DNA from: Deltaproteobacteria bacterium
GTDB lineage: Bacteria > Desulfobacterota > Desulfomonilia > UBA1062
Assembly (NCBI GenBank): GCA_017992605.1
Contig: JAGOOG010000003.1
Location: 1 to 64,000, forward strand
DNA: 64,000 bases
Direction: 5' to 3'
The notes beneath the pieces were generated by a model that was not told the DNA's origin, did no database searches, and saw nothing but the letters and a program-made list of their open reading frames with translations. Of this stretch, positions 3,261 through 62,894 are shown in pieces. Every line of letters begins with the position of its first letter. The first letter of the stretch is position 1. Made by a program: the position numbers and the translations under genes.

Positions 3261-3591
3261 GCTCGTGTAACCTCCGTAGATTCTATACAGCTCCGCAATG
3301 GGTGGTGAAAAGGCCTTTGTCTGCCGGGATGGGCATACCACCGCATTCTAAAGAATCCCGTATTCATTACCACAGACAGGTACGGGAAATCAAAGACGGG
3401 ATGGGGGAAAATCCATGAGTTTGTTTGCAGGGTTCTTGTCTTTGGTCTTTCACTGACCTGGCCGGATCGGGAAATCTTGCTGGGGAAAAATGGGGTCAGA
3501 GTCGATTTGTCATGCCGGGGGAAAAACGACTCCGACCCCATTTTGAATCATTGTGAAGACTTGTGGGATGGCTGCCCGGCTCAAGCCTTCC
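3261..3591. other. Gene-free stretch upstream of the wbpE-like gene
   Basis: This 331-base stretch separates the sugar-nucleotide genes from the acyl-CoA redox genes. It holds the REP-like palindrome at 3487-3544 and, nearer 3260, the presumed minus-strand promoter of the wbpE-like gene. A TATAGA-type -10 is visible around 3281-3286 on the minus strand, but no convincing -35 goes with it. No coding sequence or RNA gene was recognised. Confidence 0.5.
3487..3544. repeat. REP-like palindrome, copy 1
   Basis: Two 18-base arms (3487-3504 and 3527-3544) are inverted copies with one mismatch and a 22-base loop. The core is TGGGGTCAGAGTCG opposite CGACTCCGACCCCA. The same core recurs at 7044-7122. 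The layout matches REP-like elements mobilised by Y1 (RAYT) transposases in many genomes; no transposase gene is in this window, so that link is inference. Confidence 0.75.
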
Positions 3592-7021: not shown

Positions 7022-7043
7022 TGGCTCCGTTCTCTGAAATCCT

Positions 7044-7122
7044 CCCGGAAATGGGGTCAGAGTCATTTTTTAATAAAAGCATGCACTTTTGAGATTAAAT
7101 CGACTCCGACCCCATTTTCGGG
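7044..7122. repeat. REP-like palindrome, copy 2 (extended cruciform)
   Basis: The arms 7044-7065 and 7101-7122 share the TGGGGTCAGAGTC core of the copy at 3487. Inside them TTTAAT (7069-7074) faces ATTAAA (7094-7099), and AAAAG (7075-7079) faces CTTTT (7086-7090), so almost the whole 79 bases can fold as one hairpin with a CATGCA tip. It sits between two convergent gene ends (7021 and 7173) and could also stop transcription. Confidence 0.72.
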
Positions 7123-7172
7123 ATCCCACGCCCGAAGGCATGGGCATGGGGATCCCTGCAGCGATGCGATAC

Positions 7173-59272: not shown

Positions 59273-60741
59273 GCGCCTGTGGCTTTATCACCGAGTCTGC
59301 GCAATGTCAATGCTGCAATAATGGACAGCACGGCCCACAGGACCGGGATCAGGGGGCCGAACCGGACATAGAAGCTGACCTCATCGATCCTGGCTATCCG
59401 CTGGACGACCATGCCTTCCTCGAGCAGCCCGATCCGCTGCACGACCCTCCCGTAGGGGTCCACCACGGCCGATATCCCGTGATTCACGGCCCGCACGAGC
59501 CACCGCCTCGTTTCGATGGACCTGAAGCAGGCCTGTTGGAGGTGCTGCTCGGGTGTCGACCATGTCTTGAACCACGCATCGTTGGACATGTTCACGATGA
59601 GCCTGGCCCCCTTGCCGCAGAGCTCCCGGGAGAGCGCGGGGAAGATGCTCTCGAAACAGATGAGCACGCCGATGTCTTCAATCGGCTCGAGGTCTGTCCC
59701 GGCGCTGAAATCGCCCACCTCGGCAGTGAGCCCTTTGAAGTGATTCCTCAGCAGAGAGGCGAGAGGAAGGTATTCACCGAAGGGGACGAGGTGAACCTTG
59801 TCGTAGTATCCCAGAATCTTCGCATCCCGCAGCAGGTAGGCGCGGTTGTAGAAGAGTTCATCCTCATAGGCCGGACTGCCGACCAGAAAGTCCACGCGGT
59901 TCCCCCGGCTCAGCTCCAGGACGCGCATGGTCGGGGGCCAGTGCCTGAAGAGGTAGAAGGTACAGGCCGTCTCTGGCCACACCACCAGCTCGGCACCCTG
60001 ATCCAGGGCCTCCCTGGACAGGGAGAGGTAGGTGTCAAGCACCGCGTTGACCGTCTCGGGCCTCCATTTCTGGTCCTGGGGTACATTGGCCTGGACCGCG
60101 GCGGCATTCACGGGAACCCCGTCAAAGGTGCCGGCCTGCGTTCGCCAGGCGCCGAAGACGGCACAGGCAGCCACCAGTATCACCGTGGAGGCAAGCGGCG
60201 CATACCTCCTCCTGAGCGCCTGATAGGCGGCAACGTTCCCGCACATGACTATGGCGCTGATGAGAAAGACCCCTCCCAGCTCGGCCGTCTGGGCAAGGAC
60301 TGTGAAGGGAAGCTGGGAGTGACCGAGCAGGGCCCAGGGAAAACCCGAGAAGACCGCGTATGACCTGAACAGCTCCAGGCCGGTCCATATGCCGGCCAGG
60401 ATGAAAACGGCATACCTCGATGAGCCGAATCGGGAAGCCGCCCATGAAAAGGCCCCGAAATAGATCGAGAGATAGGTCAAAAGGACCGTCAACAGCAGGA
60501 TCGCGGTAAACAGGCCCATGCCGCCGTAGGTGTTCATGACCAGGGCGATCCAGTAGACCACGCCGGCCCACGCAACGAAACCCGCGATCAGGCCCGAGAG
60601 GACAGCCTGGCGGGTTGTCGTCCGCTCCACCCCCAGCAGGAGAGGCACGGCAAAGACCCACGCCAGGGGCCATACATCGAAGGAGGGGAATGCCAGAAAA
60701 TAGAGAACGCCGGATATGATCGGGAAAAAAATCCGCCTCAC
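59269..60741 (-). CDS. lnt: Apolipoprotein N-acyltransferase
   Basis: 490 residues. Five to six membrane helices fill residues 1-200. A nitrilase-like domain follows, with catalytic Glu in VVWPETA near 255, Lys in YYDKVHLVPFGEYLP near 320 and Cys in VLICFESIFP near 375. A final membrane helix is near the end. It adds the third acyl chain to lipoproteins in the inner membrane. The GTG start at 60741 overlaps the corC-like stop (GTGA). That gene pair is common. Confidence 0.95.
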   Translation of the reverse strand: MRRIFFPIISGVLYFLAFPSFDVWPLAWVFAVPLLLGVERTTTRQAVLSGLIAGFVAWAGVVYWIALVMNTYGGMGLFTAILLLTVLLTYLSIYFGAFSWAASRFGSSRYAVFILAGIWTGLELFRSYAVFSGFPWALLGHSQLPFTVLAQTAELGGVFLISAIVMCGNVAAYQALRRRYAPLASTVILVAACAVFGAWRTQAGTFDGVPVNAAAVQANVPQDQKWRPETVNAVLDTYLSLSREALDQGAELVVWPETACTFYLFRHWPPTMRVLELSRGNRVDFLVGSPAYEDELFYNRAYLLRDAKILGYYDKVHLVPFGEYLPLASLLRNHFKGLTAEVGDFSAGTDLEPIEDIGVLICFESIFPALSRELCGKGARLIVNMSNDAWFKTWSTPEQHLQQACFRSIETRRWLVRAVNHGISAVVDPYGRVVQRIGLLEEGMVVQRIARIDEVSFYVRFGPLIPVLWAVLSIIAALTLRRLGDKATGA

Positions 60742-61604
60742 GCTTTTTCTTTCAGGGCCGGCGCATGAACCACGAGCCTGCTTATCCTGCGCTTGTCCGC
60801 CCCGGCGATCTCGAAGACGAGACTGCCGTAGTCGAAGCGCTCCCCGGCCTTGGGGATCCGCTCCATACGCGAGGTGATGAACCCGGCCACGGTGTCGTAG
60901 TCGCCTTCGGGGATCTCTACTTCGAAGGTCTCGGCGAATTCGTCGATGGGCATCTTGGGGTCCACCGTGTAGACACCGTCGCCGGTGTGCTCCACGTACT
61001 CCTCGAACTCGTCCCCCTCCTCGCCGATCATGTCGCCCACGATCTCCTCCATGAGGTCGGCTATGGTGGCCATCCCGTCCACGGCGCCGTACTCGTCGAT
61101 GATGATGGCGATCTTGGTGCGCCGCTCCCTGAACTCCTTCAGGAGGTCCATGAGCTTCTTCCCCTCGGGGACGAAGAACACCGGGTGCAGGAGCTGCCTG
61201 ATGTCCGTGAGCTCGTCGCGGGCATTCCAGTATTTGAGCAAGTCCTTGGCATAGAGCACGCCGACGACGTTGTCCAGGTTGTCCTCGTAGACCGGGATGC
61301 GGGAGTATCCTTCGTCCGTAAAGACCCGCGCAAGCTCATCGACCGTGGTGGTAACGGGCAGGGCCACGATATCACCCTTGGGGATCATGATCTCGCCTAC
61401 AGCGGTGTCCTTGAGGAACAGGATGTTGTGGATCATGTCTCCCTGATCCTCGTCGATGATGCCCTGTTCCTCAACCTCGTCGAGGATCTTCTCGATCTGC
61501 CGCTTGGTGTCGTCGGCACCCTCCTCGTCTCCGGTCCGCGTGAGGTAGAGCCACAGTCGCTTCAACAGGGTGTCGGCAGGCTTGTTCTCGTCGTTATCGC
61601 CCAA
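60738..61604 (-). CDS. CBS-domain CorC/HlyC-like protein
   Basis: 288 residues. Two CBS domains (about 75-195) start at VGEIMIPKGDIVALP and include IIDEYGAVDGMATIADLMEEIVGD. A CorC_HlyC domain follows with ERIPKAGERFDYGSLVFEI. It lacks the membrane DUF21 region, like the E. coli YbeX (CorC) protein linked to magnesium/cobalt efflux and ribosome metabolism. The TTG start at 61604 has AGGAG 9 bases upstream; the open frame to 61700 encodes a dissimilar basic stretch. Confidence 0.85.
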   Translation of the reverse strand: MGDNDENKPADTLLKRLWLYLTRTGDEEGADDTKRQIEKILDEVEEQGIIDEDQGDMIHNILFLKDTAVGEIMIPKGDIVALPVTTTVDELARVFTDEGYSRIPVYEDNLDNVVGVLYAKDLLKYWNARDELTDIRQLLHPVFFVPEGKKLMDLLKEFRERRTKIAIIIDEYGAVDGMATIADLMEEIVGDMIGEEGDEFEEYVEHTGDGVYTVDPKMPIDEFAETFEVEIPEGDYDTVAGFITSRMERIPKAGERFDYGSLVFEIAGADKRRISRLVVHAPALKEKA

Positions 61605-61725
61605 TGACGATGTCTCCTGTACAGTGAATTCAGGACCTTCTTTGTAACGGAAACGCAGCGAACAGTCAATGCGGGGAAGACATTCTGACTTGTTCAGCAA
61701 AACACACTGGTTAGGGGAGTCCTAA

Positions 61726-61795
61726 CCTGCCGGTTTTGATCAAGTTCGACCGATGGATTATTATCAATCACACGAACTTGATCAAAACCGGCAGG
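61726..61795. repeat. Long perfect hairpin 1
   Basis: The arms 61726-61748 and 61773-61795 are perfect 23-base inverted copies around a 24-base loop. Each arm starts at the outer end with CCTGCC and contains TTGATCAA. Seventeen of 23 arm positions match hairpin 2. Confidence 0.95.
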
Positions 61796-61821
61796 CCACA
61801 ACGTGGATGTGGGGGCAGTAC

Positions 61822-61898
61822 AAAACAGCACTATCTCCTCCTCTCCATTGTACGCAACCATATCAGTAATTGTACAAATTGCTGTGCACTGCTGTTTT
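61822..61898. repeat. Central inverted repeat of the hairpin array
   Basis: AAAACAGCA (61822-61830) faces TGCTGTTTT (61890-61898). Inside are two TTGTAC copies. It is weaker than the two flanking hairpins. Confidence 0.55.
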
Positions 61899-61901
61899 CA
61901 G

Positions 61902-61959
61902 CCTGCTCAATTCGATCAACTTCCCCCGAAACGAAGGGAAGTAGATCGAATTGAGCAGG
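61902..61959. repeat. Long near-perfect hairpin 2
   Basis: The arms 61902-61925 and 61936-61959 pair at 23 of 24 positions with a 10-base loop. The outer end is CCTGCT, and CGATCAA lies inside. It is related to hairpin 1; where the two differ, both arms differ so that pairing is kept. Confidence 0.93.
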
Positions 61960-62057
61960 TCTGGGAAAGACCGAAGAACACCCCCCTCCTCCCTATTTCC
62001 ACCCCCTGCAGAGTGTGCTATGGGAAGAAGGCTATAGTCTACTTCAGGAGAAATCAC

Positions 62058-62894
62058 ATGCAGACCCACGAATTCACCGGTAGCAACAATTACGTCCTCG
62101 ACCCGGAGCTGTCCAAGATCGTCAATGCCAGCATCAGGCTCGAGATGCCCCTGCTCATCAAGGGCGAGCCCGGCACGGGCAAGACCCTGCTGGCTCACGC
62201 CATCGCCGAGAACCTCGCCATGCCGCTCATCATTCTGAACGTGAAGTCCAGCATGAAGGCCGTGGAGGCCCTGTACCAGTACGACACGCTGACCAGACTC
62301 AACGACAGCCGCTTCGGCGACTCGAAGCGCAACGTGAGCACCATCGAGGACTACATCAAGATGGGCAAGATCGGCCAGGCATTCGTGTCTGACCAGAAGA
62401 CGGTCCTGCTCATCGACGAGATCGACAAGGCGGATACGGACTTCCAGGATGACCTGCTTGATGTGCTCGACCAGATGTCCTTCGACATCATAGAGATCGA
62501 CAAGACGGTCCGGGCGAAGAACCGCCCCATCATCATCATTACGAGCAATGCCAAGAAGGACCTCTCGGATCCCTTCCTCGGCAGGTGCGTGTTCCACCAC
62601 ATCGCCTTTCCGGATGCCGACATGATGGACAAGATCGTGCATGCCCACTTCCCGGACCTGGACAGGAAGCTTTCGGAGGCATGCATCGAGACATTCTACC
62701 GGCTCCGGGGCGTCCGGGGCATCGAGAAGAAGCCCGCCACGAGGGAACTCATCAACTGGGTCAGGCTCCTGCTCATGGACAGGAATTTCGATCCCAGGCA
62801 CCTGGCAAAGAACGACATCCCCTACCTGGGTGTCCTGTTCAAGAAGAGCGAGGATTACAAGATTGTGCAGCGCCAGGTGACGGGGACGTACTGA
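62058..62894 (+). CDS. MoxR-type AAA+ ATPase
   Basis: 278 residues. Walker A GEPGTGKTLLA is near residue 36, Walker B VLLIDEIDKAD near 116, and sensor 1 IIIITSNAKKDL near 155. MoxR ATPases act with VWA-domain partners as metal-insertion or protein-remodelling chaperones, and one is encoded 19 bases downstream. AGGAG lies 7 bases before the ATG at 62058; the open frame to 61803 runs through the hairpin array and is rejected. Confidence 0.9.
   Translation: MQTHEFTGSNNYVLDPELSKIVNASIRLEMPLLIKGEPGTGKTLLAHAIAENLAMPLIILNVKSSMKAVEALYQYDTLTRLNDSRFGDSKRNVSTIEDYIKMGKIGQAFVSDQKTVLLIDEIDKADTDFQDDLLDVLDQMSFDIIEIDKTVRAKNRPIIIITSNAKKDLSDPFLGRCVFHHIAFPDADMMDKIVHAHFPDLDRKLSEACIETFYRLRGVRGIEKKPATRELINWVRLLLMDRNFDPRHLAKNDIPYLGVLFKKSEDYKIVQRQVTGTY

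Follow-up and report, generated by a model that had tools for sequence, protein, structure and literature searches.

The window, a 64,000-nt stretch of genomic DNA, carries two long inverted repeats in the gap between a gene for a CorC/HlyC-type protein with CBS domains (CorC_HlyC + CBS; 60738–61607, minus strand) and a gene for a MoxR-type AAA ATPase (62058–62894, plus strand), where the original prediction had located the array; the two genes are divergent, with their 5′ ends facing the gap. Hairpin 1 (61726–61795, unstranded; arms 61726–61748 and 61773–61795) has a perfect 23-bp stem and a 24-nt loop, and its right flank reads CCACAACGTGGATG. Hairpin 2 (61902–61959, unstranded; arms 61902–61925 and 61936–61959) has a 24-bp stem with one mismatch and a 10-nt loop, with TTTTCAG on its left and TCTGGGAAAGACC on its right. 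The predicted pairing, perfect in hairpin 1 and 23 of 24 positions in hairpin 2, is therefore real, and it exceeds chance: the hairpins are the top two inverted repeats of the window (scores 23 and 21), as against maxima of 10–13 in ten Markov shuffles of the window. Their RNA fold z-scores are –9.0 and –8.8. The two left arms match at 16 of 23 positions on recount, rather than the 17 first reported, and differ at positions 6, 7, 8, 9, 12, 19 and 23; both arms have changed together at every difference, as had been claimed, but there are seven such positions and not six.

Hairpin 1 is followed by a conserved tail (61796–61809, plus strand; consensus RCACAACGTGGAYG) that is common to G003 C19, G003 C50 and G004 C73 and recurs with one change in C32 of the window's genome (G000). 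An unstranded spacer (61810–61901) separates the tail from hairpin 2 and contains a weak 9-bp inverted repeat (61822–61830/61890–61898). Small hairpins border the array on the outside (GGTTAGG/CCTAACC at 61709–61727; GGTCT/AGACC at about 61958–61972). The whole lies within extra sequence (unstranded, approximately 61680–61990) delimited by comparison with congeners G004, G001 and G002, whose corC–moxR gaps are about 290 nt shorter than that of G000.

A blastn search of the array against its own genome found no second copy and no near-identical copies that would show recent transposition; weak matches appeared at other loci of congener G003, each of which proved to be a long hairpin. Covariance models built from five (R1) and 27 (R2) sequences gave matches in four of the five members of the genus, namely G000, G001, G003 and G004 (the congener genomes are MAGs), and R2 had no match in congener G002 or in any of 55 genomes from outside the genus. 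Hairpin 1 scores 82.8 bits with R1, in whose building it was used, and 60.6 bits with R2; hairpin 2 scores 61.6 bits with R2. The covariance-model search of related genomes that had been proposed as a check thus uncovered a dispersed hairpin family, with about 10 copies in G000, where further copies had also been sought, about 40 in G001, and several each in G003 and G004. The sample analyzed below consists of 65 extracted hairpins (nine from G000, 40 from G001, eight from G003 and eight from the G004 bin), some of these counts being low, as weak or imperfect members (C32b; G000 C12:8994) were missed by one method or the other. Searches of phage and plasmid collections returned no family match; three IMG/VR matches to the subfamily-A tail lack a family hairpin and look like chance. 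There is good support for placing the window hairpins in a genus-restricted, dispersed family of DNA repeats.

Two of the bins appear composite. Three of the eight G004-bin hairpins lie on contigs C56 and C141, which are 99–99.8% identical to the window's genome, and G004's own orthologues are found on C86 and C110; C56 and C141 were therefore probably binned in error and would come from a strain of the window's species, a reading preferred over fast transfer once the true orthologues were known. The G001 bin apparently mixes contigs of two strains, which overlap at 96–97% identity (C109/C190, C235/C99, C137/C89). A gene lying between two inverted, near-identical G001 hairpins on C137/C89, which from its sequence we take to encode an AI-2E-type transporter, was rejected as an autonomous element, the contigs coming from two strains.

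A typical copy comprises a T- or A-rich flank, a near-perfect stem of ~24 bp (range 20–33 bp) that starts with CCT and ends with AGG, a loop of mostly 2–10 nt (up to 32 nt), and a tail. Tails are of three types: A (ACACAACGTGGACG), as at hairpin 1; B (TCAGG followed by an A- or T-rich run), the subfamily of hairpin 2; and C (CCAGCGCCGAAGGCGCTGCAGA). Copies stand singly, the common form, or in twos or threes (window, C32, C190). The hairpins of the window doublet share their orientation, as do those of the C32 doublet, but the two spacers, the A tail apart, show no significant similarity (score 27.5 against a shuffle maximum of 33.5), and a composite element was rejected on this ground for the window doublet. 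Neither the small outer hairpins nor the middle repeat, present in the window as originally described, were seen in any other copy, and they do not look like shared design. The proposal of a single symmetrical element is therefore not supported.

Nearly all copies are extragenic: 65 of 66 listed hairpins lie in gaps, and the sole exception falls where the moxR frame was spuriously extended at its start. Gaps between convergent genes are over-represented (24 of 63 hairpins, 38%, vs 16 of 132 background gaps, 12%; Fisher p = 5e-5) and those between divergent genes rather under-represented (8 of 63 vs 30 of 132, p = 0.12), these counts being approximate because gene calling relied on a simple codon-usage score.

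Pairing is maintained across highly variable arms. In 27 copies aligned over 22 stem pairs, 96.3% of cells are paired, with 160 double changes distributed over 20 of the 22 pairs; the covariation score is 0.738, compared with 0.194 for shuffled sequences and no more than 0.142 when the structure is slid. An arm is 95% complementary to its own partner and 57% to the arms of other copies. Under selection on RNA, the transcribed strand should show more G-U than A-C. Among the 1542 pairs of the 65 hairpins, 94.5% are Watson-Crick, and the mismatches include 25 G-T and 27 A-C; when copies are oriented by transcription, the numbers are 15 and 10. Since no preference for G-U over A-C is seen, the pairing is best explained at the level of DNA: equal G-T and A-C mismatches argue against RNA selection and are predicted by arm-to-arm DNA copying. 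The assumption of the original prediction that compensatory change alone shows maintenance of the folded form is not supported. Strong covariation, which commonly counts as proof of a functional RNA, can arise from palindromic DNA, with equal G-T and A-C counts as a simple diagnostic. The family thus lends itself to testing whether stems that are perfect and co-vary come from RNA function or from DNA copying.

Comparison of orthologous loci reveals stems that change while pairing persists, in line with the expectation that relatives would keep it. In the gap shared by G000 C58 and G003 C226 (flanks 84% identical) and in that shared by G003 C19 and G004 C73 (flanks 73–83%), the stems differ and remain paired. 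Copies are also gained and lost: the matching gap of G000 is shorter by about 200 nt and has no counterpart of the G003 C19 hairpin, and half-hairpins left over in G003 at the gaps of C57 and C32 are consistent with deletion. Near-identical strain pairs of G001 (C109/C190, C235/C99) carry one and the same hairpin with a perfect stem in one strain and an imperfect one in the other. Orthologous gaps of congeners are too diverged for mapping of target-site duplications. At C47/C141 the flanks are 99% identical, yet the stems are different, each fully paired, and the tail is on the opposite side. Substitutions at this locus are concentrated in the 100 nt nearest the hairpins (5.3% vs 0.1–0.5% farther off), making recombination with a diverged strain a fair alternative for the stem swap, which could have come about by homologous exchange; no such cluster surrounds the C32/C56 hairpins. 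The G003 corC–moxR gap has an unrelated palindrome instead of family hairpins. It belongs to a third palindrome type (GGTGACAGCATACATATTT / GGGGACAGTATACGTATTTCGG) that in G003 occupies gaps where G000 carries the family (corC–moxR gap, C47 gap; L070 about 1150–1260, L069 878–933, G003 C45:8720–8910).

We favor, at a probability of roughly 0.6, a model in which the family consists of dispersed, REP-like extragenic palindromes whose arms are maintained at the DNA level and which have spread as nonautonomous palindromic DNA. Spread may have involved single-stranded hairpins at replication forks, moved by some transposase or by recombination. After insertion, arm complementarity would be kept mainly in DNA, by template switching that restores a mutated arm with the other arm as template and/or by a requirement for a good hairpin in order to move; either route, template switching or hairpin-dependent mobility, could account for the likeness of the arms. 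Any effect on expression of neighboring genes would be secondary. Perfect stems can be kept up by template switching (PMC8794818), and REPIN hairpins commonly show compensatory changes (PMC3116915). The hairpins maintained by template switching likewise have perfect stems with multiple compensatory changes, but were described for RNA genes such as rRNA, whereas the present family is dispersed noncoding DNA (PMC8794818). No family hairpin lies within 1.5 kb of any of the 10 Y1 transposase loci, and inspection found no transposase between closely spaced family hairpins. The conserved stem base and near-constant stem length, which pure mutational homogenization would not need, suggest recognition by something. 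Among the three options left open by the original prediction, a nonautonomous mobile palindrome is thus favored, a regulatory RNA is disfavored, and a cruciform protein site keeps some plausibility.

An unlikely but more radical reading is a class of self-copying palindromes, in which arm sequence would be renewed wholesale, both arms at once, leaving each site with its own perfect, unrelated hairpin, through a cycle of hairpin copying that is driven by an enzyme or by replication and is independent of RAYT. Quite unlikely is that a cellular protein (a nucleoid protein, gyrase, an SbcCD-type nuclease or a recombinase) binds or processes the hairpins in cruciform or hairpin form and that they are selected as DNA structures: DNA-level pairing despite variable sequence, the conserved CCT...AGG base and the near-constant stem length would suit such sites, but no candidate protein emerged, and restriction to one genus, absence from one congener and gain and loss of individual sites argue against an essential housekeeping role.

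Selection for RNA pairing, with the hairpins serving as 3′-end stabilizers, regulatory RNAs or attenuators, is improbable. The folds are very stable, and enrichment between convergent genes recalls REPs acting in mRNA, but besides the mismatch counts, species differ through loss and swapping of copies, the copy in the window has divergent gene starts on its two sides, and Rfam gave only chance miRNA-like matches below the gathering score. Membership in a RAYT-driven REP/REPIN system is equally improbable. In its favor, the family comprises dispersed extragenic palindromes with compensatory arms, and Y1 transposases occur in the four family-bearing genomes and not in the family-free one (n = 5); against it, GTAG is found within 16 nt of the stem in none of the 65 copies, no family hairpin adjoins any of the 10 Y1 genes, and the stems are much longer than in published REPs. 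Intrinsic, possibly bidirectional, transcription terminators are very improbable despite the convergent-gene excess and the different long hairpins in one convergent gap of G000, its strain, G003 and G004, given that a T tract (at least 6 T among the 8 nt that follow the stem, on either strand) accompanies none of the 65 hairpins, stems of 20–33 bp go far beyond terminator needs, and about 12% of copies lie between divergent genes.

Set against known systems, the family is a new, genus-limited, REP-like and untagged one with long, variable stems. Like the GTAG- and CGTC-tagged REPs (Di Nocera et al., 2013; PMC3733652), its members are palindromic, extragenic, present in tens of copies and sometimes clustered, and favor convergent and unidirectional gaps; CGTC REPs also lack a linked transposase. 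The tagged REPs, however, have stems of 5–13 or 8–9 bp, compared with 20–33 bp here, and differ in that the arms of the present family are highly variable within one genome. A CGTC tag lies within 8 nt of the stem in none of the 65 copies and within 16 nt in seven. REPINs (Bertels and Rainey, 2011; PMC3116915) resemble the family in their long hairpin, conserved outer ends, variable inner arms and compensatory changes, and two inverted units with compensatory arm changes are found here too; the conserved ends of the family, in contrast, amount to a few bases rather than an invariant 16-mer, and no RAYT is adjacent. Untagged stem-loop families, for example in Bordetella and Brucella (mentioned in PMC3733652), are also REP-like without a terminal tag; the present family appears to be a new one and, in this search, is confined to one genus. 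BIMEs, clusters of REPs with linkers, likewise bring two or three hairpins together, as in the window, C32 and C190, but the window and C32 doublets have hairpins in the same orientation and a non-conserved spacer. The consensus ends, GCCT...AGGTCAG, do not by inspection contain the integron attC core sites RYYYAAC/GTTRRRY.

Other palindromes occur alongside the family. A palindrome similar to a CGTC-type REP dimer (GTCACCCCCGCGAAAGCGGGGGTCCAG...TGGATTCCCGCTTTCG) lies inside the array of family hairpins on G001 C190 (L244 about 1250–1430). A second palindrome family, AAAATGGGGTCAGAGTCGATTTT with its inverted partner, is present in the window at 3487–3544 and 7043–7123 and on G000 C12 at 10262, 17900 and 26315. 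Its arms are near-constant and its loops variable, unlike the variable arms of the family studied here, and it may be a RAYT-type inverted repeat.
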